DNA from: Fidelibacterota bacterium
GTDB lineage: Bacteria > Fidelibacterota > UBA2242
Length of the DNA: 55,967 nucleotides
Direction: 5' to 3'
Assembly: GCA_016782645.1 (NCBI GenBank)
Contig: JADHYC010000007.1
Location: forward strand, 1 to 55,967
Numbering within the stretch: position 1 is the first letter of the stretch; each line of letters begins with the position of its first letter. The notes under the pieces were generated by a model that was not told the DNA's origin, ran no database searches, and was given only the letters and a program-made list of their open reading frames with translations. The position numbers were made by a program, and so were the translations under genes. Positions 37,915 through 55,656 of the stretch are shown one piece after another.

Positions 37915-39027
37915 ATGAATGCCATAATTAAATGTATAGAGAAACTTCGGATAAAATTAGATAAACACCGAAAGGATGATCTGAAAGAGTATCCCACAAG
38001 AACAATATTTATAGATCCATTATTGCAAGTTCTTGGCTGGGATGTAAGGGATCCAGAAGATGTCGAACTTGAATATCCGACTATAGACGGAAAGTCTGTT
38101 GACTATGCACCAAAGATAAATCGTAAGCCAGTTTTATTTATAGAAGCAAAACCTTTAAATAATCCACTTACGGATGTTAAATCAATTACACAAGTAGTTG
38201 GCTACTCTGCTAATGCTGGTATCGAATGGTGCATTCTTACTAATGGTGTTACATATAAAGTTTATCGTAGCACAGAGAAGGCAGAGGCCCCTGATAAGTT
38301 GCTTTTTGAAATTTCTCTCGATCCGAAGGAAACTGAGGGTATGTCGATCCAACAAGTTGCAGAACAATTTGCACGTTTTTCACGCGATGCAATGGCAAAA
38401 GGTCTCCTTGATGAGATTGGTGAACAAGTTTTCACTACAGGAAAAATAAGAAAAGCTTTGGACAAACTCTTAATGGAACCTCCAAACACACTAATCAGAC
38501 TTATACGTTCAATGATTGGAGACGACACCATTAAACCAATGCAAGTAAAGAAGGCACTCAAGAGGCTTTGGTCCCAAACATCAGAGTTTGAAATTACTTC
38601 AACTTATGAATTTGGCATAGAGCATATTCCACCTGATAGGAAAAAGGTAAGAAGTAAAGAGTACAATGAGGAACATCACATTAGGGGAAAACCACAAGAA
38701 GTTGTAGAATTGTTTCGGATAATTGACAAATTTTGTAGAGAGTTTGATCCTACCGCGGTTCAAAGAAAGTATCTTGCCATGTATGTCAGATATACTCATG
38801 GCAAAAATATCTTCTGTTGTGTTCATCTTCAGAAAAGTGGGCTCCGTGTTTGGTTGAAGTTGAATTACTCTGACTTAGAAAACCCACCTGAATATGTCCG
38901 TGATGTTTCGAATGTTGGGCATTGGGGAGTTGGCGATATTGAGCTTGCAATTGATAGTTTTGAGAGATTTCAAAATGTAAAGTATTTGATACAAAAGTCC
39001 CTTGAAAAAAACAAACGAATAAAATGA
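37915..39027 (+). CDS. Orphan HsdR-N-like nuclease-fold protein with DUF5655 domain
   Basis: 370 aa. Residues ~20-130 resemble the N-terminal PD-(D/E)XK domain of type I restriction subunits: YPTRTIFIDPLLQVLGWDV, D63 in KSVDYAPK, then E77-A-K79 in LFIEAKPL, followed by ITQVVGYSANAGIEWCILTN. Residues ~255-365 match DUF5655 (RKYLAMYVRYTHGKNIFCCV, LKLNYSDLENPPEYVRDVS). There is no helicase, methylase or specificity gene nearby, so it is not a normal restriction system. It may be a stand-alone defence or mobile-element protein. It is followed at once by a long inverted repeat. Confidence 0.78.
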   Translation: MNAIIKCIEKLRIKLDKHRKDDLKEYPTRTIFIDPLLQVLGWDVRDPEDVELEYPTIDGKSVDYAPKINRKPVLFIEAKPLNNPLTDVKSITQVVGYSANAGIEWCILTNGVTYKVYRSTEKAEAPDKLLFEISLDPKETEGMSIQQVAEQFARFSRDAMAKGLLDEIGEQVFTTGKIRKALDKLLMEPPNTLIRLIRSMIGDDTIKPMQVKKALKRLWSQTSEFEITSTYEFGIEHIPPDRKKVRSKEYNEEHHIRGKPQEVVELFRIIDKFCREFDPTAVQRKYLAMYVRYTHGKNIFCCVHLQKSGLRVWLKLNYSDLENPPEYVRDVSNVGHWGVGDIELAIDSFERFQNVKYLIQKSLEKNKRIK

Positions 39028-40336: not shown

Positions 40337-41578
40337 TCAGTCCCACAATTCCGGTTTTACCAAAAGAACGGCTAACAGTCCGTACATCCCTGATACTGCT
40401 ATAATTATGAAGTCAAAGAAGTTGTGCATAAGATTTTCCCGGCGGTACTTTTTCACGAAAAAGCAAATGAGTAGAGATATAATAATTCCATAGGTGCTTT
40501 GGAATCCACTGAAGTTAACATCAAAATTTACGTATTTACTTCTACCTGATCTTGTATTTATTGTAAACGGGAATATGAATTTTTCAATTTTCCCCGTTAT
40601 AGTTTTAGATAATGGTGTAACCTTTATCTCGTAAGTATCTACTAAATTGTAATTTTTGTCAGTAACGACACAGACCCTACTTTCTGAGCCTGAATATCTT
40701 ATTACTCTATAGATAGGATTAGCTAAAAAGACTAAAGACATTTTATCCGGATTGTACCCATCGAGTGGAAGTTTAATTATTTTGTAATTGTCGTAAGTCA
40801 AGAGGTATAGTTCTTCAGATTGGGTTAAAATGGTCCCATAGAATTCCCTTCTTGGATTTTCCGATATAAATATCTTACGTATTCCCAAATCCGCCGGGAT
40901 ATTGGTTTTTACGCAAAATGGCTTTCCTTTAACCCGTTTAACATGAAAAACGAATCCTTTTGAGTCTACAATAAAATATCCCTCATCAAAAGGTTTTCGT
41001 GTCGTTGGATTTCCATCAATAAAAGTGGCAGGAAAGGAAAAACCCGTCTCAGTCAGTTTTTCAGTAAAGATTTTTGTCAAGCTATCATTAATAGTATTTG
41101 TTTCAGCAGTGATAAACTCAATTTTTGTACCGATTCTAAATAGTTCATTAGGGAGTTCAAGATTTGTAAAATTCGACTTTGATTCAAAAAGTGGGAAAAG
41201 TTGAATTAGTGGATTATGGAGTTTGTAAGGAGATATCCTGAAAGATTGGGAATTTTTTCTAATAAAAGAAACGTCAATTGGAATACCTTTAATTGTATCG
41301 GGCAATACTCCCCATTTATCCAGGTCTCTGTAAAAATCGAACGGTAATAGAGCTTCAAATTTCTTCCGATTATATCTTTTGCCGGAAGCGTCGATGTAAT
41401 TTAATTTGTTATTTTTACCTAACTTGAAATATACGAAGTCATCGATGACCGGGCTATAATAAATAATTGGTCTGCTTATCCGCTTTCCAAATAATTTCCA
41501 ATAAAAGTTAGGTAAATGTACTGCAGATATAGTTACAATAATTAAAATAATTGCATATCTTGAGATTTTATTTAACAT
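40337..41578 (-). CDS. DUF4857-like membrane protein of an ABC transporter locus
   Basis: 413 aa. One helix near residues 8-25 (YAIILIIVTISAVHLPNFYW), a long extracytoplasmic region with beta-propeller-like strands (GYFIVDSKGFVFHVKRVKG, SEELYLLTYDNYKI), and two C-terminal helices (IIISLLICFFVKKY, FIIAVSGMYGLLAVLLV). Proteins of this build (DUF4857) occur with ABC ATPase and permease genes in Bacteroidota. It overlaps the permease gene by 1 bp. Its task in transport is not known. Confidence 0.68.
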   Translation of the reverse strand: MLNKISRYAIILIIVTISAVHLPNFYWKLFGKRISRPIIYYSPVIDDFVYFKLGKNNKLNYIDASGKRYNRKKFEALLPFDFYRDLDKWGVLPDTIKGIPIDVSFIRKNSQSFRISPYKLHNPLIQLFPLFESKSNFTNLELPNELFRIGTKIEFITAETNTINDSLTKIFTEKLTETGFSFPATFIDGNPTTRKPFDEGYFIVDSKGFVFHVKRVKGKPFCVKTNIPADLGIRKIFISENPRREFYGTILTQSEELYLLTYDNYKIIKLPLDGYNPDKMSLVFLANPIYRVIRYSGSESRVCVVTDKNYNLVDTYEIKVTPLSKTITGKIEKFIFPFTINTRSGRSKYVNFDVNFSGFQSTYGIIISLLICFFVKKYRRENLMHNFFDFIIIAVSGMYGLLAVLLVKPELWD

Positions 41579-42246
41579 TATTTACTACCTTTCCTTAGAC
41601 GATATCCTGGGAATAAAATTGTTATAGAAAATAGAATTACAACAATAAAATAGTACCAAAATGAAAATCTGTATTCATTGTAGCCATTTTCGAGGAATAA
41701 AAGATTAAAATATGCAATGCTTATAATGGATAGTATTATTCGATTTTTCCATGTTGATTCGATAACAATCATGGATGCTGCAAGGTATCCTGCTATTCCT
41801 GCCAAAAGCCAGGGTGTAACTGTAATTAAAGAGCTTAAAACAATTTCTTGAGGATAAAAGGCTGAGCCTGTGATCATAAGTCCTACAATTATTAATATGT
41901 AAACTAGCATGTTTGTTAATAGTCCTATTAATATCATAAACAGCAACATCCTTTTTTCGTCAATGGGCAAATGGAAAGAGAGTCGGAAGCGGTTTTTAGT
42001 CATCTCGGGTACAAATTGCGCTACTGCAAGAGCAATTCCAGCAAATAGAGGAATATATTTTAACAGTGAGTAGTACAATACTTTCCGTTGAATTATAAGA
42101 AGCCAAGTTTTTATTGCTCCGGACATCTCGATATTATGCCTACTATCAAGTCCAATATATACTAGAACTGCGAGGCAAATTGCTGCAAAACCAACTAAAA
42201 CCCATTTAATTTTTATCCATTCTTTATATAAAATTGCTTTATACAT
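41578..42246 (-). CDS. ABC transporter permease (ABC-2-like)
   Basis: 222 aa with six predicted helices (WVLVGFAAICLAVLVYIGL; ILIGLLTNMLVYILIIVGLM; LLAGIAGYLAASMIV and others) and the opening MYKAILYKEWIKIKW, typical of ABC-2 permeases. It is placed between the ATPase gene (10 bp) and the DUF4857-like gene (1-bp overlap), so the three make one exporter. The cargo is unknown. Confidence 0.82.
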   Translation of the reverse strand: MYKAILYKEWIKIKWVLVGFAAICLAVLVYIGLDSRHNIEMSGAIKTWLLIIQRKVLYYSLLKYIPLFAGIALAVAQFVPEMTKNRFRLSFHLPIDEKRMLLFMILIGLLTNMLVYILIIVGLMITGSAFYPQEIVLSSLITVTPWLLAGIAGYLAASMIVIESTWKNRIILSIISIAYFNLLFLENGYNEYRFSFWYYFIVVILFSITILFPGYRLRKGSK

Positions 42247-42256
42247 AATTATTCCT

Positions 42257-43144
42257 TTAATATTTACCTGTTAAACCGATAAATGCTTCCTCAAGAGTCA
42301 TAAAGGTTTCTTGCAAATCTTCATAGCTGATGTTTTTTTGTTTAAAGTAAGCTTTTATCTCATTTATGTCATGAAATGAGTAAATACTGTATTTATTTTT
42401 TATTACTTCAAAGTTTTTAATTATATCATTTTTTTCTAATTGCAAACTTTCACTGTCAGTTATAAAACAATACCGGTGGAAGCTGTTAACAAATTCTTTA
42501 ATTGGCATTTGTAATAGTATTTTTTGGTATCCAATAATAATAGCGTCATCGATGATTTTTTCCAGGTCCTGAATTATATGGGAAGTCATGAAAACAGATT
42601 TATTGTTACCGTGAACATATTCAAGCAGATAGTCAAGAAACAACATTCTGTAACCAGCATCTAATCCCATGGAATAATCGTCGAGGATCATAATCTCAGG
42701 ATTCTGTGCCATAATAAGACCAAGCGCTACCTGAGAACGCTGACCACAGGACATTCTGGATATTTTATGATCGTAATTCATATCCATTTTATTCATTAAT
42801 TCGTAGTAAAATTCTTTCTTCCAATTAGTGAAGAATTTAGAATAGAATTTCTCAACCTGTTCTACCGTCATGAAGTCGTATGCCAGATGTCCTTCGTGTA
42901 AAAGTCCGATTCTGGCTCTTGTTTGGGGTGAAAGATTATGAGACTCTTCACTAAGAACCATGATTCTTCCGCTAGTTGGCTGCAAGAAGCCCATCATTAT
43001 ATTAATTATAGTTGTTTTACCCATTCCGTTTTTACCCAGAATTCCGAAGATTTTACCTCGCTGAACAGTGAAGTTCAAATCCTTGAAAATTAATTTCTTA
43101 CCATATTTATGGGTAAGATTAATACATTCAATTACGTTTTGCAT
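42257..43144 (-). CDS. ABC transporter ATP-binding protein
   Basis: 295 aa. Walker A is GILGKNGMGKTTI, Walker B IMILDDYSMGLD and the signature MSCGQRSQVALGL. The usual catalytic Glu after Walker B is Asp (LDD in place of LDE) and the signature has Cys in place of Ser-Gly. I recall ILDDYSMGLDAGYR in other ABC ATPases, so this may be a subgroup trait. ~80 residues follow the H-loop (TSHIIQDLE). First gene of the exporter operon, read towards the radical SAM gene. Confidence 0.93.
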   Translation of the reverse strand: MQNVIECINLTHKYGKKLIFKDLNFTVQRGKIFGILGKNGMGKTTIINIMMGFLQPTSGRIMVLSEESHNLSPQTRARIGLLHEGHLAYDFMTVEQVEKFYSKFFTNWKKEFYYELMNKMDMNYDHKISRMSCGQRSQVALGLIMAQNPEIMILDDYSMGLDAGYRMLFLDYLLEYVHGNNKSVFMTSHIIQDLEKIIDDAIIIGYQKILLQMPIKEFVNSFHRYCFITDSESLQLEKNDIIKNFEVIKNKYSIYSFHDINEIKAYFKQKNISYEDLQETFMTLEEAFIGLTGKY

Positions 43145-43499
43145 ATTTAACTCGATTTTCTATTATTAACTAACCAGAATTATATTGGGCGAAATTAGTA
43201 AAAACTTGTTTATTCAACAATATGTTTTTATATTTTTTCCAATTTTTTAATTGAAAATTTAATATAAGCAAGGCTAATAACTTAATTTGGCTATGAGGGA
43301 TAAAGGGGCAGAAGTCGAACCTCTTGGGCTTTGAAAATAACATGTAAAAAAGCACATTGCTTGAATTTAAGTGTAAATTGAATTATGTCTCCGTGGATGC
43401 TTTTAGCGAAGAGTAATACCTGAAACATATAAGTAGTGAAATGTAAATTGCAAATCACGAATTATTTATTGTGGTATTTTTTTGAAGGGATTTAGATAA
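43145..43499. other. Divergent intergenic region between the ABC and TonB loci
   Basis: 355 bp, very AT-rich, that must carry promoters for both directions. No clear consensus promoter, hairpin or metal-regulator palindrome is visible to me. GAAGGGA at 43484-43490 can serve as ribosome site for the receptor gene. Confidence 0.45.
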
Positions 43500-46066
43500 A
43501 TGAAAAAGTTATTTTTCTTTTTTATAATTTTATGTTTATTATTGCCGCTTTCAGTTCAGGCATCTACAATCAGTGGTAAAGTACAGTGTCAAATGGCAAG
43601 AAAAAATATTGAAGGTGCATTAGTTATTCTTTTAATGCGTGGAGATGAATCTTTTTCAAAGACTACTGTTACGGATAAATATGGGAGTTTTATTCTTGAA
43701 AATATTGAAGATGGGATTTACAACATTGAGGCTGTTAAAGATGGATATTTCAAGAATGTCTTATTTGATTTAAAAGTAGAGAAAGATCGCACTTACAATG
43801 TAAATATCAGATTGTTAAAGCAAAAAGGTAAAGCTACTAATGAATATTGTTTTATGCTTGGTGGAATAGAGGTTACATCTGTTCAAAGGGATATTATTCC
43901 GGAGGAAGCGACAACGATAAGAAAAATTGATTCCGGTGAAATTGAACACATGCAAGCCACAAACCTTGGTGATATTTTATCATTGGTTCCTGGTATCGAA
44001 AAATCTAACAATCAGGGTTTATCAAAATCCTCCCAGGTTGGTATTCGTACTATCGCTACCAGTGGTGGTACGGTAACTGGCATAGAATCCTTTGGAAGCT
44101 CTATTATTATAGACGGTAACCAGATGTCTAACGAAGCAAATCTAACGACAAAAGTATATGGCAGTTCCGGTACTCAAGGAATCGACTTAAGAAATATTCC
44201 TGCGGATAATATTAAATCTGTAGAAGTGATCACGGGCATCCCTTCGGTTGAGTATGGTAATTTCTCTAGTGGTATTATTAAGGTGGAGACTAAAAGCGGT
44301 CAGATCGCTCCTAAATTAAAGGCGAAAATCAATCCGGACACTAAAACGGCAAGTTTCAGTCACGGTATTGCTATCAAAGAATCTGTTTTGGATTATCATT
44401 TGAACTATGCCTATAGTGAACGTAATCCCCGTAAAGAGGGCGATGAATACCAGCGTTTGCACGCCAGCGGTAATATTTCCAAATATTTCTTCAATGAAAA
44501 ACTGGATACGAGAATTCGGGGCAGCTATACTAAAATGATCGACGATGAAAAACCGACCGATGTTCAAAAAATTAAAGATTATAATCGTGGCTACCGGGCT
44601 GCCGGAAGTGTAAACCTTGATTATAAACGAAGTGAAAATGACAAAATCATCGGTTTTTTTGGTTTCAATCTGAACCGTAAAAAAGCATACAAGTCAAAAT
44701 GGGTTGCTGAGATGCTTCTGATCGAAGGTGATACTCTTCCCGGTTATGTCGGTATAATGAATGAAATCGGGAAAGAATGGAATGTAAAGGGAAAACTTCA
44801 AAAAAAGACTACATATCAAAGCAGTAAGAGAATCCATAAAGTTCTCTTAGGTTTTGAAGGCGATTACCAAAACAATACCGGTGACGGATTATACATTGAT
44901 CCTGTTTACGCTTATTACGGTCAATATTCTTCGCGGCGATCCTATTTATTCAGCACTTTTCCGGAAATAACAAGCCTGAGTTTGTATTCCGAAGATATGA
45001 TAAAGGGTAAATTTCTTGGAAGAAAGTATAACCTGATGCTTGGACTTCGTTATGATGTATTTAATCCGACAGGATTTAATTTCGGCAATGTGTTTGAAGA
45101 CAAAGCCTTCCTGAAATCCGATCATGGTGATTTCCTGTGCCCCCGCTTTAATTTGCAATATTTCATAACTGATTATCTTCGTTTCAGATGTGGCGCCGGT
45201 AAAAGCGCTAAAGCGGTTTCGCTTGGCTTTATCTATAAACCGCCGGCATATTATAAATATTTGAAAGATTCGGTTGTGGTTGAAGAAGAACAACTGCGAT
45301 ACAATTCCGATTTACAGACATACACTACCGACAAATACGAAGCATCCATAGACTTGAAAATCTTGATATGTTAGGATTATCGATTACCGGGTATTACACC
45401 GAATCAAAAGACCGTCCTACCGGCGTAGTCTATCCCTGGGGATATGATATTAATCCCGATACTATAACCTCAGCCAGTTACTCAATTTATGATAACCGTG
45501 GTTGGTATAAATCCAGCGGTGTTGAGTTTACAGTACGCACTAGACGTATCTATAAATTGCAGTATAAAATGAATGTTACCTACCGCTTTACTCACAGCGG
45601 AAGAAGCGGCTTAAGCTATGATTCTCAACCCGATACAAGCTGGGACCAGATCTGGTATACGCCATCAGATAGCTGGCGCGAAAAAATTATTATTGATTAT
45701 CAGCTGAATTACATCAGCAAACGCCTCGGGGTCTGGGTTACATTTGACCTTCAACATGTGCCTCTGGAACATCGCAAAACGATTTATAACAGCAATTCAA
45801 AAATGAAAGATGTTGATGACCTCGAAGAACAAAAACTGTTCTATCAGGGGATGACGTACTGGTATGACAGCGCCGTGTATTCTACCGGTGGCAGGACCTT
45901 GTTTAATTTCAGGCTTACAAAATCCTTATCCCAGAAAACCGAATTGTCATTATATATCAATAATGTGCTGAATGACCGCGGTAAATGGGTAAATCCTTTT
46001 ACTGATCGGATTACTGAATACAACCCCGAGATTTATTATGGATTGGAGATAAGTACACAATGGTAA
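43500..46066 (+). pseudogene. TonB-dependent receptor, interrupted by a frameshift
   Basis: Two adjoining frames make one ~855-aa outer-membrane receptor. 43500-45374 holds a signal peptide (MKKLFFFFIILCLLLPLSVQ), a carboxypeptidase-regulatory-like domain (~22-105), the plug (~125-260, IEHMQATNLGDILSLVPGIE, VEVITGIPSVEYGNFSSGII) and about half of the barrel. The frame breaks near 45345-45360; the rest runs in another frame to 46066 (LENLDMLGLSITGYYTESKD ... YYGLEISTQW), ending in the usual aromatic residue. One base gained or lost explains it. It may be a real lesion or a sequencing error. No clear TonB box is visible. Confidence 0.88.
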
Positions 46067-47139
46067 AAAAACCACTGTTCTTTCTTCTTATTCTGACTCT
46101 CTTTTTATCGGGATGTTTTAAGGGAAAACCGACTCAGTTTGATGGGGAGATGGCAGTAAAGTTATATGTTACGTTTGAAGGCAATTATCTGCCAAATATC
46201 CCGGTATTGCTTAGCACGTTTGATTATAATATTTCGACTTACATAGACACAACCGATTCCGCCGGTCTGGCAAATTTTGAACCTATTCCCTATGCGGAAT
46301 ATAAAGTCAATGTAAAAGCCACTGTAATGTTTCCTGCGTTTGATAATCCGGATTCTTTGGTGGAGTTTACTGTAGTAGGTGCCTGTATTGTAGAGCCCGG
46401 CGACGGGGGCATTTTTATTGATACGCTTGAAGTTATAGCTTCCGGCGCTGAATCAGGCTTAAAAATTAATGAAATCTACGCTGCAGGACCGCCCAATGAT
46501 TTTTTCTATTGGTCTGATCAATTCATTGAACTGTATAATTCATCTGTGGATACTGTTTACTTAGACGGCATGGTTGTCTGCCGGATGGGTAAGTTTCTGG
46601 AAAGCGTTACCTATATTTTTCAATTCCCCGGCGAACCTCTGGTTGGCAGAGAATATCCCGTTCCGCCGGATTCATTTGTTGTACTTGCCCAAGACGCTAT
46701 GGACCATACGAATATACCAAACCTTCCACTACCGGAAAGCGTTGATCTGTCGCATGCCGATTGGGAATTTAGAAACAGCGTCGATTATGGAGATTTTGAT
46801 AATCCTGATGTTCCCAATATTGATAATATGGAGGTTGGTCACAGGCTTGATTTTATGATTAATTTAGCTGGTGATGTGATACTTATCGCGGACGGCAGCG
46901 ACCTCAATTATTTGGACGGGATCGATATCAATTCGGTTATTGACTGTGTTGAGTATCATAGTTCTTCCGATGCTATGAAAGAAATTGAGGCAGAACTTGA
47001 CCGGGGATTTGCCGGCGTAGGGATAATAAGATATGGGGGACAGTCCATTGAAAGAATTTCAGCCGGTTTTGACAGCAATAATTCTTCGATTGATTTCGTA
47101 ATTCTATCCAGTCCGACGCCAGGGTATCAGCATGAGTAA
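46060..47139 (+). CDS. DUF4876 family lipoprotein, copy 1
   Basis: 359 aa. A lipoprotein signal ends LTLFLSGC (Cys19). Residues ~30-110 form a prealbumin-like/carboxypeptidase-regulatory beta domain (GLANFEPIPYAEYKVNVKA). Residues ~135-359 carry the DUF4876 region, with GLKINEIYAAGPP and DQFIELYNSSVDTVYLDGM resembling a lamin-tail domain fold, and end SPTPGYQHE. It overlaps the receptor end by 7 bp. It is likely a surface or periplasmic lipoprotein partner of the receptor; ligand unknown. Confidence 0.85.
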   Translation: MVKKPLFFLLILTLFLSGCFKGKPTQFDGEMAVKLYVTFEGNYLPNIPVLLSTFDYNISTYIDTTDSAGLANFEPIPYAEYKVNVKATVMFPAFDNPDSLVEFTVVGACIVEPGDGGIFIDTLEVIASGAESGLKINEIYAAGPPNDFFYWSDQFIELYNSSVDTVYLDGMVVCRMGKFLESVTYIFQFPGEPLVGREYPVPPDSFVVLAQDAMDHTNIPNLPLPESVDLSHADWEFRNSVDYGDFDNPDVPNIDNMEVGHRLDFMINLAGDVILIADGSDLNYLDGIDINSVIDCVEYHSSSDAMKEIEAELDRGFAGVGIIRYGGQSIERISAGFDSNNSSIDFVILSSPTPGYQHE

Positions 47140-47187
47140 GTTGCTAAGATTAAAACCAAGTTTTTCAAACAACAGCGTTTGGGAGCG

Positions 47188-48273
47188 ATGAAAACACCAT
47201 TTCTATTATTGTTCTTACTATTTGTGGCATCAGCCTGTTTCAGAGAACAACCTACTCAAGTTGATGGTTCGCTGAACTTAACACTGTATGTTAAATTTGA
47301 AGACCGCTTCCTGAATTCAATTCCGGTGACTTTAAAAACCTATGACTATAATAGTACTCCTTTTAGCGGCGTTACTGATTCATGCGGAGCGGTTTCCTTT
47401 GAAAATATTCCCTATGCAGAATATCTTATTACGATAAAATCTTCCGCTATTGTAGCTTCGGCGCTTGACTCTAATGCAATGGATACGGTTACAGTAATCG
47501 CTTCAACTTTAATAACACCCACTGAAACATCAATTAATGAAAACATAATTATCGATACTATTTATACGATTGCATCCGGCGCGCAGCCTGGATTAAAAAT
47601 CAATGAATTGTATACCGTCGGTCCGCCAAACCGTTCATATTATTTTTATGATCAATTTATCGAATTGTATAATTCCTCCAACGACACGATCTACCTCGAC
47701 GGTATGGTGATTTGCAGGATGTGGCATATGCTGGAAAGTGTTACTTACATTTTCCAATTTCCCGGCGAACCCCTTGTGGGTCGCGAATATCCTGTTCCTC
47801 CTGAAACTTTCGTGGTTATTGCCCAGGATGCAATGGACCATACGAATATACCAAATCTCCCTTTACCGGAAAGCGTTGATCTGTCGCACGCCGATTGGGA
47901 ATTCAGAAACAGCGCCGATTACGGAGATTTTGATAATCCCGATGTGCCTAATCTCGACAATATAGAAGTCGGTTACAGCCGAGATTTCATGATTGCCTTA
48001 ACGATGGACGTTGTGCTTATTGCAGATGGGAGCGATCTGGACTATCTGGATGGAATGGATATCGAAGCGGTCATCGATGGTGTAGAGTACGCCTCCTTTT
48101 CAACTCACTTGAAAGACATAGAAAAAGAAGTTGATCGAGGATTTGGCGGTGTTGGTTTGACTAAATATAGCGGGCAATCACTGGAGAGAGTTGCAGCGGG
48201 GTTCGATTCGAATAATTCCAGCGTGGATTTTGTAATTTTAGATCATCCTACGCCAGGATATCAGCATGAATAG
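47188..48273 (+). CDS. DUF4876 family lipoprotein, copy 2
   Basis: 361 aa. MKTPFLLLFLLFVASAC gives a lipobox at Cys17. It is a tandem paralogue of the preceding gene: QDAMDHTNIPNLPLPESVDL is identical in both, as is the PTPGYQHE ending, while the N-terminal beta domain has diverged and has a 15-residue insert before the DUF4876 part. The start is ATG 47188 with GGGAG just before it, not the TTG at 47179. Duplication within one operon suggests two ligands or a dimer. Confidence 0.85.
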   Translation: MKTPFLLLFLLFVASACFREQPTQVDGSLNLTLYVKFEDRFLNSIPVTLKTYDYNSTPFSGVTDSCGAVSFENIPYAEYLITIKSSAIVASALDSNAMDTVTVIASTLITPTETSINENIIIDTIYTIASGAQPGLKINELYTVGPPNRSYYFYDQFIELYNSSNDTIYLDGMVICRMWHMLESVTYIFQFPGEPLVGREYPVPPETFVVIAQDAMDHTNIPNLPLPESVDLSHADWEFRNSADYGDFDNPDVPNLDNIEVGYSRDFMIALTMDVVLIADGSDLDYLDGMDIEAVIDGVEYASFSTHLKDIEKEVDRGFGGVGLTKYSGQSLERVAAGFDSNNSSVDFVILDHPTPGYQHE

Positions 48274-48321
48274 ATTTTCTGAGAAACTATATGATTAGGA
48301 TATTATTTATGGGGTTTTAGC

Positions 48322-49776
48322 ATGAATAGAAGCGCAATAATATTTTTGATATCCGGAATATTGGTGTTTTTGAGCAATTTATCAGGTTATGAAAATCCAT
48401 TATTTCCGGATATTGTGATCGAAGAACCGTTTAGCAGCACCATTCAGACGCCTATGAACCTATACCGGATCAGTTTTAATCCGGCTCTCTTCAAAATTTC
48501 GTATCAGGAAGATTTTGTTTACTATAGAGTTAACAGCTTCGACAAAATAAACTTTTACCACCGGGTATATGATCCTAAAAGACAAAGAGATTATCAGCTT
48601 TATTTCTATACACATAAAACATTAGATAAAAAATCCACTCTTGCGGCAGCTGTACGGTATAATCGCGCCGATCAGTATGATGTATACAGGTCCTTGGAAA
48701 AGAGTTTTTATAACAATTATTTCTCATATATCGATACGACCATGGGCAATGTAACTTACGAAGGTCCGCAGCTTTGGTTTTTATATAATTATTCATTGAC
48801 AAATAATTTGCTCTTTGGTTTTCAGATAGATTATGGCATTGAAAGAAGTTTAAAGGATGTATATACAAAATGTGAGACTGTAATCCGAAATCTGGATTTG
48901 AAATTCGGCGTTGGATTTGGGTCTAATAATAGCAATTTTGTCGCCGGGGCGTTTGTAAGGTATCTCAATTACCAGGGACAATATAACGCTGTAAAAGAAC
49001 TACAGGATGCTTTTGTGAGAACATATTTCGGATACCACGTATTCCGCGATGAAAACCCACGATCTTTGAACCGTAAAAACGATTATAAAGAAGGTTATGA
49101 ATTTGGCGCTCAATTAACCCGGAAAAATATTTTAGTTGACGGTCTGGGAATACAGTTGTCCGGAAGTTATGGCACAAGATATACTGATATTACAGTTGGC
49201 AGTACCTCTCTTCCAGGGGATAGAGGTTATTGGATTCGTGAGGGGTATAGAATATTTGGGGCTGTTTTTTACCAGCCGGTTGAATCGAATTTCATGTTTC
49301 AGCTGTTTTATGAATATAAAGATTTCAGCGACTGGGCTCGGGCTGGCGAGTATAATGTGGTAACTATCGAAAACGATGAGGTTATGCATCGATTCGGTTC
49401 CGTATTGTATTTGCCGCTAATGAATAAAGTTGGCGTATCCACCGGTTTTGAGATGGAGAATATTCGGTCAGACTATCACGAGTACATTGTAGAATTCGAT
49501 TATAACAGGGAACATCATAACTGGAATGCTTTTACGGACTTTAAGCTTGCAATCAATCAGATTACCAATGCCCATATTAAAGGAATGCTTGGAACAGTTG
49601 AGCCCTGGTTTTACTGGAATACGGATAAATTCGATATAATAGCGTTTCAATACGGATTTGAAAGATTATTTGTTTTTGGTACCTTGGGACTGGAATTTTA
49701 TTATGAAGTTTGGGGACCTGAAAATTCTGATAAAAATATCGAGACTTACGGATTGTCTATTTCATATAGAAAATAG
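48322..49776 (+). CDS. DUF6850-like outer-membrane beta-barrel protein
   Basis: 484 aa with a signal peptide (SAIIFLISGILVFLSNLSGY). The rest is alternating aromatic/polar beta strands (YQLYFYTHKTLDKKSTLAAA, FMFQLFYEYKDFSDWARAGE), ending TYGLSISYRK, typical for an outer-membrane barrel of ~20 strands. The place directly after DUF4876 genes and the receptor matches loci I know from Bacteroidota with DUF6850 proteins; the family name is a recollection and not proven here. It is probably an outer-membrane component of the uptake system. Confidence 0.72.
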   Translation: MNRSAIIFLISGILVFLSNLSGYENPLFPDIVIEEPFSSTIQTPMNLYRISFNPALFKISYQEDFVYYRVNSFDKINFYHRVYDPKRQRDYQLYFYTHKTLDKKSTLAAAVRYNRADQYDVYRSLEKSFYNNYFSYIDTTMGNVTYEGPQLWFLYNYSLTNNLLFGFQIDYGIERSLKDVYTKCETVIRNLDLKFGVGFGSNNSNFVAGAFVRYLNYQGQYNAVKELQDAFVRTYFGYHVFRDENPRSLNRKNDYKEGYEFGAQLTRKNILVDGLGIQLSGSYGTRYTDITVGSTSLPGDRGYWIREGYRIFGAVFYQPVESNFMFQLFYEYKDFSDWARAGEYNVVTIENDEVMHRFGSVLYLPLMNKVGVSTGFEMENIRSDYHEYIVEFDYNREHHNWNAFTDFKLAINQITNAHIKGMLGTVEPWFYWNTDKFDIIAFQYGFERLFVFGTLGLEFYYEVWGPENSDKNIETYGLSISYRK

Positions 49777-49820
49777 AAAATGTTTTCTATAAAACATATG
49801 TGTGATAGTTTAAAAAAAAC

Positions 49821-49849
49821 TTGACATTATAAACATTGTTTAATAAGAT
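49821..49849 (+). promoter_or_regulatory. Sigma70-like promoter of the BNR-repeat gene
   Basis: TTGACA (49821-49826), 17-bp spacer, TAAGAT (49844-49849). Transcription would start near 49856, giving a ~60-base leader before the ATG at 49916. It shows the gene is its own transcription unit and not part of the receptor operon. Confidence 0.65.
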
Positions 49850-49915
49850 GAGACGTCACTAACTTAGAAGGTGACAAATTTTTCTGAAATTAATATTAAC
49901 TTAAAGGAGGATGAA

Positions 49916-52900
49916 ATGAAGAAACTGCTATTGTGCATTTTTGTTATCGCATTAACTGCAGTAATTGCATTTCCGCAATCGTGGCAAGTGGTGAAAGAGA
50001 AAAGTGTACAGTACTATCCAAATGATGGATTTTTCCTCGATGCCAATACAGGTTGGCTTGTTGGAGATGATGGGGTAGTTTTAAAAACCGTAGATGGTTG
50101 TGCAACCTGGTCAATTGTACGAGAGCCTGATTATAGTTACATCGATTGGACAGATGTTGAATTCATTGATGCAAACATCGGTTATGCATGTGCGGATGAT
50201 GGATTCATTTTTAAAACTGAGGATGGAGGTGTAACCTGGACGATGATTGCTGACACCGTAAATTACAAAGTTGACTTTGCGGGATTATCTGCCGTAACGG
50301 GTGACCTTGTTTATTTTTCTGGTGATGATTGGACTCTGTTGAAAACCGCAGATGGCGGATCATCTTTTACAATGCAAGGTGACTCTGCTACATTTTTAGG
50401 CCAAGACCTCGATGGTGGTATTGCTTTCTGTGACACTAATGTAGGTGTAGTAATTGCTGATACAAAGTATGGTTACACATGGTATACACATGATGGAGGC
50501 GTAACTTGGAATCATGTGAACATCGCTGGGTTGCATACCGGAATAAGCACTAAATTGTATGATATATCTGCAGGAGGAGATTCGACAATTGTAATAGGTG
50601 GATATCATTTAACTGCTTATGTTTCCAATAATGGTGGAAGGACTTATTCTCAAGAAGCAGACCTTACATTTGCAACTAAATACTTTAAATCTGTAGATGT
50701 TTTAGATGCAAATACATATATTTTAGGCGGGAGTAGCGGACGAGTTATAAAAACATCAGATGGTGGAACTAACTGGGATACTCTTTATGTCGAAAGTGGT
50801 CAGACTGCAGGGATTGTAGATTTTATTGATGCCAACACCGGATATATTTTTTCTTATTATGGGCAATGGTTCAAAACTACCGATGGTGGAGTTAATTTCA
50901 CACCTCTAAATGAATGGCCAGGTACCAGTTTTCGAGGGCTTTCATTACCAGATGACAATAAAATTGTTATAACAGCTTTTGGTGGTGGAGAATTGTCAAT
51001 GAGTGAAGATGGTGGTCTTACCTGGAGCTATCCAAATAATTATTCCACTAATATGACAAGTAATGTTAATGTATGTGATTTTATTGATGCCAATAATGGT
51101 ATAATAGGAGGAGTATCCGGAGTTCTTCAAAAAACGGGAGACGGTGGAGCTTCCTGGAGCTCCTTTGCTAATCCGCTATATGATTTAGGATCAACAATCT
51201 ATTCGCTTCTTTATTTGAGTTCAGATACTATATATATAGGTGGCTCATCCGGGAAGATATATTTCACCTTTGATGGAGGTACAACTTGGGATGGTGCTGA
51301 CTATGGTAGTGGTAATATTGAGGATATACATGCAATCTCCGATACGAAAGTTATTGCTACTGCACAAAGTGGTAGAATTTATATATCCGACACAACCGGG
51401 GGTTCTTTTGGTTTTGTCCTGAAAAAAGATTATGGAAGTATGGATATGAATTCAGTCGAATTCCGGGGTGATGTAGGTATTGTGGCTGCGGATGATGGTT
51501 TAATTTATAGAACAACTGTTGCAGATTGGGATACGCTTGTAGAAGTTTATACTGAACCCAATGGAGAAGATCTACATGACGTCGAATTTGTTGATGATAC
51601 TCTAGTCTTTATTATTGGTTATGATGGTACAATTCTTAAGTCCACTGATGCCGGATTAACATGGGCAGCTGAGGTAAGTCCAACTGATGTTACTTTACAT
51701 AAGGTTCGTTACCGTAATGGTAGAGTTTGGGCTTCAGGAGATGCTGGTACGGTTCTCAAATGTGAAGTTGGTATCCCGATTTTGCCAGTGATATCAATAA
51801 AAGCGGCTAAAATTGATGCCAATGGCGACTATGTACCAGATTTACTAGGTGAAACTGCCTGTATTGCCGGTGTTGTAAATTCAATCAATTTTGATGCAAC
51901 CCGTACAAGCTACTATATACAAGATGCTACTGCAGGCATCAACGTTTTTGGTTATGGAGTACAGGGTGTAGATCTGAATTGTGGTGATAGTGTTCTCGTT
52001 ACCGGTGAAGTTGATCAATATTTAGGACTTACGGAAATCTCGATTTCTGCTCCGGAGGATGTCGAACTATTGGCTGCAGGAACTGCTTCACCTGACCCTG
52101 TTCTTGTAACATTAAACGATATGATGGATCCCATATTTGCTGAAGTGCATGAAGGCTTACTGGTTAAGATATTATATGTTAGTATTGTGAAAGAGGAATG
52201 GCAATCTTCATATGGTGATGTAGCTGGTGCTATTACCGATGGTACAGATACTCTTGCAATTCGTGTCTACGCTGAAACTGGAATCGCCTATGAAGATTCA
52301 TCTCTTGTTTTTGACAAGATTTTTCATTTTACTGGCATCGTAAGTCAGTACACATACAGCGATCCACCGAATGATGGATACCAAATGTTTCCAAGAGATA
52401 TCTCCGATTTTGAAATTCGAGACCCGTTGACAATTGCAGAAGCGAAAATTGATGCTGATGGTGATTATGCTCCGGACTTATATGGCGAAATAGTCGGGGT
52501 TGTAGGTGTTGTAAATTCGATTAATTTCGATGCAACCCGTACCAGCTATTATATTCAGGACAATACTGCAGGCATTAATGTATTTGGTTACGGAGTGCAG
52601 GGTGTAAACTTAAATTATGGAGATACAGTTCACGTTACCGGTGAAGTAGACCAATATAAAGGACTTACGGAAATTTCGATTTCTGCTCCGGAAGATGTCA
52701 AATTATTGGGGGCAGGAACCTCTTCACCCGAGCCAGTTCTTGTAACACTAAGTGATATGATGGATCCTGTAGTCGCTGAAGCGCATGAAGGTTTATTGGT
52801 TAAGATATCTAATGTTTATATCGTTAAAGATGCGTGGCAATCTTCATATGGTGATGTAGCTGGTGCCATTACCGATGGTACAGATACTCTTACAATTCGC

Positions 52901-53365
52901 ATTTATGCCGAGACAGGGATTGTTGATGAAGATTCATCTCTTGTTTTTGATAAGCTTTTCCACTTCACAGGCATTGTCAGTCAGTATACATCCAGTGATC
53001 CCCCGAATGATGGATACCAGATGTTCCCAAGAGATATTTCCGATTTTGAAATTATCTCTTCAATAGATGAAATCACCGCTATTCCTGAAGTTTTTGCACT
53101 GCAACAGAGCTATCCAAATCCGTTCAACCCAACAGCCTCAATTAAATACGATCTGCCTAAGGAAGCTATGGTCAGGATTATTATCTACGATATTATTGGT
53201 AGAAAAGTCCGAACACTAGTAAATGAAAAGCAGGATGCAGGTTATAAATCCATTATCTGGGATGGTCGTGATAATGAAGGATGCATGGTAAGTTCCGGTA
53301 TGTATATTTACCAGATGATAACTGATGAATTCCAAAAAACAAGAAAGATGACTCTCCTAAAGTAG
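49916..53365 (+). CDS. Large secreted YCF48/BNR-repeat protein with duplicated OB-like domains and C-terminal sorting domain
   Basis: 1149 aa from ATG 49916 (AAGGAGG at 49904-49910); signal peptide MKKLLLCIFVIALTAVIAFP. About 11-13 BNR/YCF48 repeats (KTxDGGxTW) follow to residue ~625, building a beta-propeller. Two OB-fold-like modules (each 212 aa, DNA 51809-52444 and 52445-53055) share long identical stretches such as VVNSINFDATRTSYYIQD. The C-terminus is a ~90-residue type-9-like/FlgD-like sorting domain: QSYPNPFNPTASIKYDLP, RKVRTLVNEKQDAG, SGMYIYQM, KMTLLK. It is a cell-surface or secreted protein; ligand unknown. Confidence 0.85.
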   Translation: MKKLLLCIFVIALTAVIAFPQSWQVVKEKSVQYYPNDGFFLDANTGWLVGDDGVVLKTVDGCATWSIVREPDYSYIDWTDVEFIDANIGYACADDGFIFKTEDGGVTWTMIADTVNYKVDFAGLSAVTGDLVYFSGDDWTLLKTADGGSSFTMQGDSATFLGQDLDGGIAFCDTNVGVVIADTKYGYTWYTHDGGVTWNHVNIAGLHTGISTKLYDISAGGDSTIVIGGYHLTAYVSNNGGRTYSQEADLTFATKYFKSVDVLDANTYILGGSSGRVIKTSDGGTNWDTLYVESGQTAGIVDFIDANTGYIFSYYGQWFKTTDGGVNFTPLNEWPGTSFRGLSLPDDNKIVITAFGGGELSMSEDGGLTWSYPNNYSTNMTSNVNVCDFIDANNGIIGGVSGVLQKTGDGGASWSSFANPLYDLGSTIYSLLYLSSDTIYIGGSSGKIYFTFDGGTTWDGADYGSGNIEDIHAISDTKVIATAQSGRIYISDTTGGSFGFVLKKDYGSMDMNSVEFRGDVGIVAADDGLIYRTTVADWDTLVEVYTEPNGEDLHDVEFVDDTLVFIIGYDGTILKSTDAGLTWAAEVSPTDVTLHKVRYRNGRVWASGDAGTVLKCEVGIPILPVISIKAAKIDANGDYVPDLLGETACIAGVVNSINFDATRTSYYIQDATAGINVFGYGVQGVDLNCGDSVLVTGEVDQYLGLTEISISAPEDVELLAAGTASPDPVLVTLNDMMDPIFAEVHEGLLVKILYVSIVKEEWQSSYGDVAGAITDGTDTLAIRVYAETGIAYEDSSLVFDKIFHFTGIVSQYTYSDPPNDGYQMFPRDISDFEIRDPLTIAEAKIDADGDYAPDLYGEIVGVVGVVNSINFDATRTSYYIQDNTAGINVFGYGVQGVNLNYGDTVHVTGEVDQYKGLTEISISAPEDVKLLGAGTSSPEPVLVTLSDMMDPVVAEAHEGLLVKISNVYIVKDAWQSSYGDVAGAITDGTDTLTIRIYAETGIVDEDSSLVFDKLFHFTGIVSQYTSSDPPNDGYQMFPRDISDFEIISSIDEITAIPEVFALQQSYPNPFNPTASIKYDLPKEAMVRIIIYDIIGRKVRTLVNEKQDAGYKSIIWDGRDNEGCMVSSGMYIYQMITDEFQKTRKMTLLK
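51809..53055 (+). repeat. Internal tandem duplication, unit 636 bp
   Basis: AAAATTGATGCC at 51809 and AAAATTGATGCT at 52445 start two in-frame copies, so the unit is 636 bp (212 codons). Blocks such as GTTACCGGTGAAGT(T/A)GA and CTTACGGAAAT(C/T)TCGAT remain near-identical, with mostly third-base changes. It is a fairly recent domain duplication. Confidence 0.9.
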
Positions 53366-53383
53366 TCACTTCTGTATAATCAG

Positions 53384-53421
53384 AAAATGCCCCGAGCAAT
53401 TTTGTTTCGGGGCATTTTTTT
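53384..53421 (+). terminator. Intrinsic terminator after the BNR-repeat gene
   Basis: AAATGCCCCGA (53385-53395) pairs with TCGGGGCATTT (53407-53417) around an 11-base loop, followed by T-run to 53421. A strong rho-independent terminator. Confidence 0.93.
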
Positions 53422-53475
53422 AGTGTAATTGTTTTTTTGTCTCCTGGACTCAGCAAAATCAAACAAAAAGTGTAA

Positions 53476-53628
53476 AACAATTGCCTCGAAGATTACCTTG
53501 TGCAATATCACCAGATTTACCAAGCTCTGGTCTCAAATAATGCTGGTGAAGATTATTATTACTCCAGGAATGTTCCTTTCCGGTATGAAATTAATTCTTT
53601 GGTATATCTTTCGGACATTTGTGAATGA
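53476..53628 (+). pseudogene. Possible coding remnant
   Basis: One frame between stops reads DYLVQYHQIYQALVSNN, then GEDYYYSRNVPFRYEINSLV and YLSDICE, a protein-like composition with no start codon of note. It could be the tail of a lost gene. I cannot name a family. The rest of the 53422-53724 gap shows no other feature. Confidence 0.3.
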
Positions 53629-53724
53629 GACCATAAATTTTATTTAGAATTATTTAAATCTGCCACTATATTTCGGTATGTCAATTAATGAATATATTGT
53701 TCTCAATAAAAAAATGGAGATGCA

Positions 53725-55656
53725 ATGAACAGAAATTTTCTACATAACAAGACTAAATTAGTTTTTCAAGCTTCGATACTTGTTTTGATTTTCACCCTAG
53801 TATTAATTGGATTAATAAGTAAATCTTACAACACCGATTTTGAAGCCTATTGTCCTTTCGGCGGTATATTATCTCTGGGCAGTAAATTATGGCTTGGATC
53901 GATGTCCTGCGCCATGAGTGAAGATCAGGTGTTTATGGGTATTTTCCTTTTAATCGGAGTGATGATCTTCGGTAAATTATTTTGCGGGTATATTTGCCCC
54001 ATTGGGACTGTTATTGAGTGGTTAAATAAGCTGACGGCAAAGTTTAATCTGTCTCGTGTACTCACCGGCATGTGGGATCGATTGTTGCGGCTTGGAAAAT
54101 ATATTTTATTATTCTTCACGGCATATTTTACAATTACATCCAGTGAATTATGGTGTAAAAAATTTGATCCCTATTTTGCTTCAGTGACGGGTTTTGACTC
54201 TGATGTTGTGGTTTGGGCAGGTATCTTAACAATTATGGCTGTTGTAATTGGGTCGGTAGTAATTAAATTTTTCTGGTGTAAATATGTCTGTCCTCTATCA
54301 GCGCTCAGTAATATTTTTTCAAATATTTTGATTACAGCTCCAATTATCATCATTTACATTATTCTTCGCTTGGTCGGCTGGGATCTGCATATTTTGTGGC
54401 TGCTTTTGGCTCTGGTTATTTCCGGTGCGGCAACGGAGATTATTCGATTTAAATTTTATTCGATTTCTCCTTTGAGAGTCAAGGTCAATAAAGATAATTG
54501 CATTAGCTGTTCTCTGTGCGATAAATCATGTCCGCAGGGGATTGAAGTTAGTAAATATGAAAAGGTTACTCATCCCGACTGCAACTTTTGCATGGATTGT
54601 GTAAAGAGTTGTAAGACAGATAATAGTATCGGCTTGATTAAGTCAGACGGAACCTGGCTGCCGCCGGTTGTTCTGGTGGTATTATTCGTCCTGGGATTGA
54701 TATTTGCGAAGACTTTTTCCTTTACTACTCTTTCTGAGCGGTGGGGCAATTTTGATGAATTGGAAACCGTTGGAAAATATGAGATGACGGATGTCCGAAG
54801 TATAAAATGCTGGGGCAGCGCCAAGACACTTCAGAATAAGTTAATGAGGAAAAAAGGCATTGTCGGGCTTGACGCCTGGGTAAAAGGGCGCCGGATTGTT
54901 GTCTATTACGATCCTGAAAAGACAAACGTCACCGGCGTGAAAAGAGCTGTATTTAAGCCTGTTCGATATAAGATGAATACGTTAAAGGGCTTTCAGCCGG
55001 AGCAATTAGCGGTATTTCAAATTAGTATTGACGGAATATGGGATACCTATGATAATGTCGATCTGGTCCGAATGCTGATGAAAAACAAACATATTTACGG
55101 GTATGAAACCAATTTCGGAGAACCGGTTGTTGCCAAAATATTGTTCAATACAGATAGTATTCAAACCGATGTAATAAAAGAGATTATTGAGCAGAAAAGT
55201 TATATCAGAAAAGTCAAGGGTAAGGAACAAGTAGAAAAAGTTGATTTTGAATGCGCCGATAAGGGAATGGTAATTGACACTGTTACTTACATTACTTTCA
55301 GACAGAATTTCTTTTCTGGTTACAGTCAGAAATATAATGACTATGAAGAATACGATCCCGACAGCCTGTATATCTTCGAAATTGGGCTGCCTTATGCTGA
55401 AAGTATAGGCATTCGACAAAATCTGAAGTATTTAACGAGCCACATTTCTTTCTTTGACGGGACTGTCAGAGTCAGAACCACCTATACCGATAGACCGGTT
55501 TTGCAGGTTTATTACGACCCTGCCCAGGTGGATTCTTCCCAGATTCACGCTTCGCTTCTGGAGCCGGTTTTAAAAATTTTCATTTCGGATAATGAAACCC
55601 GGGAAAGAAAAAATTTCTTTAAATTCGAAGAATCGGCGAGGGTTATTAAGTACTAA
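53725..55656 (+). CDS. Membrane polyferredoxin (NapH/CcoG-like) with three HMA-like modules
   Basis: 643 aa. Residues 1-250 hold about six membrane helices with the paired Cys motifs CPFGG (C43), CGYICP (C87, C91) and CKYVCP (C185, C189) of NapH/NosR/RdxA-type electron-transfer proteins. Two 4Fe-4S clusters follow: CISCSLCDKSCPQ (C259-C269) and CNFCMDCVKSC (~291-301). A seventh helix (VVLVVLFVLGLIFA) leads to three beta-alpha-beta-beta-alpha-beta modules resembling heavy-metal-associated domains, near 355-408, 425-490 and 548-620. Only the first keeps a Cys (C362, KCWGSA); CxxC is gone. It may pass electrons to a metal ion at the membrane; which metal is unknown. Confidence 0.82.
   Translation: MNRNFLHNKTKLVFQASILVLIFTLVLIGLISKSYNTDFEAYCPFGGILSLGSKLWLGSMSCAMSEDQVFMGIFLLIGVMIFGKLFCGYICPIGTVIEWLNKLTAKFNLSRVLTGMWDRLLRLGKYILLFFTAYFTITSSELWCKKFDPYFASVTGFDSDVVVWAGILTIMAVVIGSVVIKFFWCKYVCPLSALSNIFSNILITAPIIIIYIILRLVGWDLHILWLLLALVISGAATEIIRFKFYSISPLRVKVNKDNCISCSLCDKSCPQGIEVSKYEKVTHPDCNFCMDCVKSCKTDNSIGLIKSDGTWLPPVVLVVLFVLGLIFAKTFSFTTLSERWGNFDELETVGKYEMTDVRSIKCWGSAKTLQNKLMRKKGIVGLDAWVKGRRIVVYYDPEKTNVTGVKRAVFKPVRYKMNTLKGFQPEQLAVFQISIDGIWDTYDNVDLVRMLMKNKHIYGYETNFGEPVVAKILFNTDSIQTDVIKEIIEQKSYIRKVKGKEQVEKVDFECADKGMVIDTVTYITFRQNFFSGYSQKYNDYEEYDPDSLYIFEIGLPYAESIGIRQNLKYLTSHISFFDGTVRVRTTYTDRPVLQVYYDPAQVDSSQIHASLLEPVLKIFISDNETRERKNFFKFEESARVIKY

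Follow-up and report, generated by a model that had tools for sequence, protein, structure and literature searches.

A candidate metal-complex acquisition unit with an HMA-bearing polyferredoxin in Candidatus Neomarinimicrobiota

The window considered here, the whole 55,967-nucleotide stretch of DNA that was analysed, comes from an uncultured bacterium of the Candidatus Neomarinimicrobiota and carries a group of genes that, on balance, seems to make up an envelope-wide unit for the acquisition of a metal complex, most likely a Fe(III) chelate, by capture, TonB import and ferredoxin-driven periplasmic reduction. We advance more tentatively that the HMA-bearing polyferredoxin of this unit may represent a new class of transmembrane metal-complex reductase, powered by cytoplasmic ferredoxin chemistry and working beside or instead of heme-based PepSY reductases in a TonB receptor/DUF4876/DUF6850/DUF4857-ABC uptake system of at least two phyla. 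The analysis draws on the genes and domains present, on predicted folds and membrane topology, on co-occurrence and linkage, and on the equivalence of loci across phyla. DUF4876, DUF4857 and their ABC transporter are strongly iron-regulated in gut and oral Bacteroidota, where they are without an assigned mechanism. As the gene set travels across phyla with PepSY, with a polyferredoxin or with both, periplasmic metal release becomes a concrete, testable question, and the loci described below suggest that the electrons it requires could come from ferredoxin-type clusters, not heme. If true, this would extend metal scavenging by TonB receptor, lipoprotein and reductase to a large uncultured phylum.

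Genes of the unit

The features of the unit, in window coordinates, are the following.

40337-41578, minus strand: DUF4857 protein, partner of the ABC transporter (Pfam DUF4857, 6.8e-92, 308 bits)
41578-42246, minus strand: probable ABC transporter membrane subunit (222 residues, hydrophobic, no Pfam family; assigned by position)
42257-43144, minus strand: ABC transporter ATPase (Pfam ABC_tran, 1.3e-24)
43145-43499, no strand: putative divergent promoter region separating the ABC and receptor operons, from sequence
43500-46066, plus strand: TonB-dependent receptor (Pfam Plug, 6e-13, and CarboxypepD_reg; two overlapping ORFs)
46060-47139, plus strand: DUF4876 lipoprotein 1 (Pfam DUF4876, 52 bits; LTD, lamin-tail-like, 1.4e-5; lipobox LSGC)
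47179-48273, plus strand: DUF4876 lipoprotein 2 (Pfam DUF4876, 56 bits; lipobox ASAC; likely start ATG at 47188)
48322-49776, plus strand: DUF6850 protein (Pfam DUF6850, 40.8 bits against a cut-off of 27)
49871-53365, plus strand: T9SS-targeted surface protein (PSII_BNR, 3e-28, a Ycf48/BNR propeller; DUF5689; Por_Secre_tail)
53382-53420, plus strand: predicted intrinsic terminator between surface protein and polyferredoxin (hairpin of -22.3 kcal/mol, z = -6.4, T-run)
53725-55656, plus strand: membrane polyferredoxin (Fer4_5, 2.9e-10; seven predicted helices)

The original prediction had the unit begin at the receptor, and its inventory stands in large part: the receptor, the twin lipoproteins, the DUF6850 gene and the membrane polyferredoxin are all where it placed them, but the receptor is not an intact single ORF. 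Its two ORFs (43500-45374 and 45368-46066) overlap, the frame being broken once, near 45366; since the receptor of relatives is a single ORF through this point, the split can be understood as a one-base frameshift, either genuine or an assembly error. Both tandem lipoproteins pass the Pfam DUF4876 cut-off of 27.9 bits and have lipobox-type cysteines, and the second has the solved lipoprotein 4q1z as a relative (E=2e-5). The DUF6850 protein is probably an outer-membrane beta-barrel.

What the inventory missed is the divergent ABC/DUF4857 group at 40337-43144, a core part of the uptake unit. In relatives, the ATPase gene is a conserved neighbour of the DUF4857 and receptor genes, and the membrane subunit gene lies between ATPase and DUF4857 in nearly all cases. 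DUF4857 is predicted to have a periplasmic, beta-rich, propeller-like domain with one membrane helix before it, at the N-terminus, and two after it, at the C-terminus; a sequence search of the PDB returned no homologue, and the AlphaFold2 model (pLDDT 89) matched only generic beta-propellers there, with low TM-scores. The literature on the function of DUF4857 and DUF6850 yielded nothing beyond expression data.

The T9SS-targeted protein, in which a Ycf48/BNR propeller is followed by two DUF5689/OB-like repeats and a type A sorting tail, probably starts at the ATG at 49916, this residue (Met16) being kept in 17/18 sequences. It had been set aside earlier as an independently transcribed gene. 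Separate transcription is indeed plausible, from a candidate promoter (TTGACA-17-TAAGAT at 49821) before the gene and the predicted terminator behind it, but the exclusion does not hold: in relatives too, the gene has DUF6850 on one side and the polyferredoxin on the other, and it is a conserved member of the unit.

Joint presence and linkage across genomes

The functional link between these genes was to be given up if no co-occurrence was conserved beyond this genome. The contrary was found, and the link is now well supported: co-occurrence and close linkage hold across 100 related genomes and extend to a second phylum. Among the 100 related genomes, joint presence with the polyferredoxin reaches 31/31 for DUF4876 (p=2e-19) and 23/31 for DUF4857 (p=2e-11), p-values that overstate independence, as most of the Neomarinimicrobiota cases lie within related families. 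The distance from polyferredoxin to DUF4876 is 3.4-5.8 kb in 20 genomes, and four loci (L101-L104) have the whole set in a single same-direction run, ABC-permease-DUF4857-TBDR-DUF4876-DUF6850-BNR-polyferredoxin. Absence is joint as well: four genomes from the family to which the window belongs (G001, G009, G010 and G015) are without polyferredoxin, DUF4876, DUF6850 and DUF4857 alike. In the second phylum, that of an Ignavibacteriae genome, polyferredoxin goes with DUF4857 in 6/9 against 5/287 (p=4e-8), and the two share a neighbourhood at L123, L124, L125 and L128. Apart from near relatives, a scan of contigs with a single polyferredoxin query matched no more than one Ignavibacteriae locus and, distantly, one from Desulfobacterales.

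FeoB is present in 35/38 genomes with the system and in 46/62 without it, a weakly informative difference. Fur is encoded in the window's genome; the upstream Fur site that had been proposed as a check did not emerge, the best 19-mer in 12 divergent promoters, from the window and its relatives, being no better than in shuffles.

The polyferredoxin and the nature of the metal

The polyferredoxin combines two CX3CP membrane motifs, two 4Fe-4S ferredoxin motifs and three HMA-like modules. An alignment of 21 sequences has 16 invariant cysteines, among them C87/C91 and C185/C189 of the CX3CP motifs and those at 259/262/265/269 and 286/289/292/296 of the 4Fe-4S motifs; in the polyferredoxins of two phyla, C362 and every cysteine of the 4Fe-4S and CX3CP motifs are unchanged throughout. 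The charge pattern predicts that the ferredoxin motifs are cytoplasmic and the HMA-like modules periplasmic. The three modules had been proposed from the sequence, and at the level of fold the proposal is supported: the AlphaFold2 model, of low confidence in its membrane half, has three beta-alpha-beta-beta-alpha-beta units (about 350-416, 427-497 and 549-621). Their PDB matches, headed by tandem HMA domains of CopA, include single HMA domains of ATP7B as well, so that a ferredoxin-like HMA fold may be assigned to each. The family signature does not follow, as Pfam HMA (PF00403) has no match on the polyferredoxin at E<1 and the CXXC metal motif is found in none of the three modules across the 21 sequences. 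In module 1 the site reads CxGS, its one cysteine, C362, being invariant; modules 2 and 3 are without a conserved cysteine. In the absence of CXXC, direct binding of a metal by these modules is only putative, the Cu/Zn assignment made at the outset is weak, and iron becomes the better-supported metal.

It is in this context that uptake of copper, as a chalkophore or Cu-peptide, has to be weighed, with the polyferredoxin as a CcoG-like cupric reductase whose HMA-like modules present Cu(I). The resemblance of the modules to CopA and ATP7B domains and the invariance of C362 at an HMA site speak for it, as do the cupric reductase activity of CcoG-type polyferredoxins and the genetic overlap with CcoG of CrpH, a PepSY protein of a copper-regulated TonB operon (PMC13038864). 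We nevertheless regard it as unlikely, for besides the missing CXXC, the homologous loci are iron-starvation loci, and DUF4876, DUF6850 and the receptor have no conserved Cys/Met cluster. Indeed, a search of these three proteins for conserved His/Met/Cys clusters that would name a metal found only the lipidated cysteine and single histidine positions.

Iron-starvation loci and other known systems

The closest known systems are iron-starvation loci: BT3625-3633 of B. thetaiotaomicron, together with BT1933-39 and P. gingivalis PG1019-1022. Relatives of most parts of the unit are known from published work to be strongly induced by iron starvation in gut and oral Bacteroides-type bacteria. BT3625-3633 is induced 37-128-fold under iron depletion (PMC10434189) and the P. 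gingivalis DUF4876 operon goes up along with the Hmu heme system when hemin is low (PMC10470040), such induction being known for the Bacteroides and Porphyromonas loci only. The original reading of the unit as one of metal uptake and reduction agrees with these data and with the presence of PepSY in equivalent loci, and is to that extent upheld, its choice of Cu or Zn being the weak part.

The low-hemin response could also point to heme or another tetrapyrrole, a heme- or cobamide-like ligand being imported and the reductase aiding release of the metal from the ring. Two DUF4857-ABC loci (L147 and L148) do lie in other TonB-receptor clusters, and at L147 PepSY has CbiX-type chelatase genes next to it; their receptors differ, however, and DUF4876 was detected at neither. 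Co-regulation with Hmu shows shared iron control only, and chelatase, HmuY and heme-binding families are absent from the window's unit and from the recurrent families at 20 Neomarinimicrobiota loci, which makes this explanation quite unlikely.

For PepSY proteins, reduction of metals in the periplasm is either known or has been proposed (PMC13038864, PMC12424826, PMC13142918). The family includes periplasmic siderophore reductases. No PepSY membrane protein was found in the window's unit, and a genome-wide search confined to small PepSY (PF16357) found it neither in the window's genome nor in the DUF4876-bearing relatives (0/38). Of six DUF4857 loci examined that are free of polyferredoxin, from five genomes, four (L143, L144, L146 and L147) have a PepSY_TM_like_2 gene, L144 in the very gene order reported for BT3625-3633. 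By analogy, the polyferredoxin may take the place of PepSY in Neomarinimicrobiota loci. A strict replacement was considered and rejected: L123-L125 have both, so that the two are not strict substitutes.

Taking the unit as a system for a metal complex, most likely a Fe(III) chelate, we may picture its operation as follows. The DUF4876 lipoproteins and the T9SS BNR protein would capture the complex at the surface and pass it to the TonB-dependent receptor, with DUF6850 as an accessory outer-membrane barrel; import into the periplasm would, as expected for this receptor family, be driven by TonB. Cytoplasmic electrons would then travel through the two 4Fe-4S clusters of the polyferredoxin to its membrane cysteines, and the metal would be reduced at or near the periplasmic HMA-like modules, a role thought to be that of PepSY in equivalent Bacteroides loci. 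The freed metal, or the chelator, would finally be moved by the ABC transporter, with DUF4857 as its periplasmic partner.

A variant, which we consider very unlikely, has M16, M28 and clan CD-like peptidases, whose genes are neighbours of the unit in relatives, freeing the metal from metal-peptides or metalloproteins, or processing a peptide metallophore: M16 genes lie inside the unit at L094, L095, L101-L104, L131, L132 and L134-L136 and with the polyferredoxin at L087 and L122-L127, M28 occurs at L124, and a HEAT protein with an H..DECxxG motif is found in operon B, yet the link is genomic only and the window's own unit has no such gene. That the polyferredoxin is a co-located protein of respiration or redox maintenance with no part in uptake is highly improbable: its NapH/NosR-like similarity, the terminator that precedes it in the window and one orphan copy outside the unit (genome G268, L129) would fit, but linkage and joint presence or absence hold in two phyla, with 0 copies without DUF4876 among 100 relatives.

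We may return to the unit as a metal-complex acquisition system and place it among its counterparts. With CcoG, NapH and NosR the polyferredoxin shares two CX3CP membrane motifs and two 4Fe-4S motifs; it differs by a C-terminal extension of about 310 residues with the three HMA-like modules, and scores far below the cut-offs of the NapH/MauN (37.8 bits against 213) and NosR (28 against 1000) models. CcoG reduces Cu(II). With BT3625-3633 the window has in common a TonB receptor adjoining DUF4876 lipoproteins (two in each; BT3631/3632), an ABC ATPase, a hypothetical, in the window permease-like, protein and DUF4857, an equivalence that rests on published annotations. The two differ in that the Bacteroides locus contains PepSY membrane proteins, with no polyferredoxin on record for it, while in the Neomarinimicrobiota unit one finds a T9SS BNR protein and the polyferredoxin with its HMA-like modules. 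Bordetella pertussis (CrpH/CrtA) and Caulobacter (HiuABC) have TonB receptor operons that encode a periplasmic metal reductase, known or proposed (PMC13038864, PMC12424826); their reductases are PepSY_TM proteins, and DUF4876, DUF6850 and DUF4857 are not reported there. XusABC, finally, is built from a surface lipoprotein, a TonB receptor and an inner-membrane reductase (PMC13142918), and the window has a similar trio of TonB receptor, lipoprotein and inner-membrane redox protein, in which the lipoproteins are of DUF4876/lamin-tail type, not DUF4374 as in XusB, the redox protein is a polyferredoxin, and an ABC transporter is added.

Gene content and linkage

Every gene of the original prediction is present: the TonB receptor, the pair of DUF4876 lipoproteins, the DUF6850 protein, the BNR/Ycf48 surface protein with its T9SS tail, and the membrane polyferredoxin. 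The source genome, a 2.56-Mb draft in 109 contigs whose closest named relatives are Candidatus Neomarinimicrobiota, has only two DUF4876 copies, both in the window. What had been overlooked is a neighbouring module:

40337-43144, minus strand: ABC ATPase, 222-residue membrane protein and 413-residue DUF4857 protein, divergent from the receptor.

A high-confidence model (pLDDT 89) of the DUF4857 protein, which matches its family at 308 bits, shows a membrane anchor and a beta-rich domain resembling a propeller. In the neighbourhoods L101-L104 of relatives, the ABC ATPase, permease and DUF4857 genes, ordered as in the window, directly precede the receptor, DUF4876, DUF6850, BNR surface protein and polyferredoxin, all in one direction. 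In other relatives the three genes have the window's divergent arrangement and face the receptor itself (L133, L140, L141) or an M16 peptidase lying ahead of it (L132, L134, L136).

That the predicted genes are functionally linked is strongly supported by joint presence and absence, by linkage and by recurrence in a second phylum. Among 100 relatives, the polyferredoxin (full or partial) is found in 31, DUF4876 in 38, DUF6850 in 35 and DUF4857 in 28; DUF4876 occurs in all 31 polyferredoxin genomes, neither is present in 62, and four genomes of the window's own family lack all four. Fisher values of 1e-11 to 1e-23 take no account of shared ancestry, which makes them too small; the joint absences and the constant polyferredoxin-DUF4876 spacing (3.4-5.8 kb, 20 genomes) are independent of them. 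Of 296 genomes sampled from the phylum to which an Ignavibacteriae genome belongs, nine have the polyferredoxin, 11 DUF4857 and six both (p = 4e-8); here too the polyferredoxin shares neighbourhoods with ABC/DUF4857, M16 peptidase, the BNR protein and the receptor set.

The window's receptor is split, frame 1 ending at 45374 and frame 2 starting at 45368 (frameshift within 45355-45380), while all relatives compared have a single continuous frame across the same residues; the break is a one-base loss compared with them, either genuine or an assembly error of the draft. Ahead of its sorting tail, the surface protein (49871-53365) has a tandem pair of almost identical DUF5689/OB-like repeats, about 200 residues long. 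Unrelated to the metal unit, an HSDR_N-like nuclease-domain gene with a DUF5655 tail (37915-39027) lies upstream of a radical SAM gene.

The polyferredoxin and the redox position

Sixteen cysteines are invariant across 21 polyferredoxins of two phyla: C43, C62, C87, C91, C144, C185, C189, eight of the ferredoxin domain and C362. Loop charges suggest that the N-terminus, CX3CP motifs and ferredoxin domain are cytoplasmic and the C-terminal 310 residues periplasmic. A structure model and fold matches predict the three HMA-like modules originally proposed in this C-terminal part, but the HMA label is a statement on fold, not evidence for the copper or zinc binding read from it. Module 1 holds one of the usual two cysteines, modules 2 and 3 none; H573 of module 3 is invariant in the alignment.

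In four of six DUF4857 loci devoid of polyferredoxin, a small PepSY_TM_like_2 protein lies inside the cluster, and the gene order of one of them, L144, is that published for Bacteroides thetaiotaomicron BT3625-3633. For PepSY_TM proteins (FoxB, HiuB, XusC, CrpH), a role in reducing metals in the periplasm is known or proposed (PMC12424826, PMC13142918, PMC13038864), and this is the main reason for regarding the polyferredoxin as a putative reductase. The small PepSY family is absent from all 38 DUF4876 genomes of Neomarinimicrobiota (depletion p = 0.01). Strict substitution is ruled out by three Ignavibacteria-type loci holding both, a few hundred bases apart; the two are alternatives or partners. 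PepSY genes are accompanied by small Cys-containing proteins in L146 (DUF4920) and L144 (weakly matching an OB fold), and by unclassified ORFs of similar size in L123-L125.

The proposed ligand

An Fe(III) complex is the favoured ligand, by analogy, because homologous Bacteroidota loci answer strongly to iron depletion: BT3625-3633 are induced 37-128-fold and Porphyromonas gingivalis PG1019-1022 21-215-fold (PMC10434189). A P. gingivalis DUF4876 gene also responds to hemin limitation (PMC10470040). The window genome has a Fur-family regulator gene; no Fur box stands out in the divergent promoters of the window and relatives (12 regions). A tetrapyrrole is a live rival: in L147 (310-2980), genes for a CbiX-type chelatase and a similar neighbour stand on either side of a PepSY gene, with a DUF4857-ABC gene and TonB receptors close by, which hints that a form of the transporter serves tetrapyrroles. 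Copper is likewise a live rival as the imported metal. TGTCG/CGACA half-sites, some in inverted pairs, form a possible regulator site in the divergent promoters of L132, L134, L135, L136 and L141 (14 found against 2.5 expected by dinucleotide shuffles over 12 regions, a post hoc finding); the window's own divergent promoter has none.

Relation to known systems

Many relatives have a further operon that combines another receptor with DUF4876, DUF6850 and a HEAT-repeat protein (L092, L093, L097, L100-L104). The H..DECxxG pattern of this protein recalls clan CD cysteine peptidases; the protein matches no peptidase family. Published B. thetaiotaomicron data contain both operon kinds, BT3625-3633 being annotated as DUF4857, hypothetical, ABC, PepSY, two DUF4876 and receptor, and BT1933-39 as HEAT, DUF4876 and receptor. 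The original prediction, metal uptake plus reduction, was largely right in its observations, while its mechanism is one that we infer. The most fitting description of the system is a cross-phylum variant of the known scavenging of metals by TonB receptor, surface lipoprotein and inner-membrane reductase, with the polyferredoxin-HMA protein as its previously unrecognised, putative redox module.
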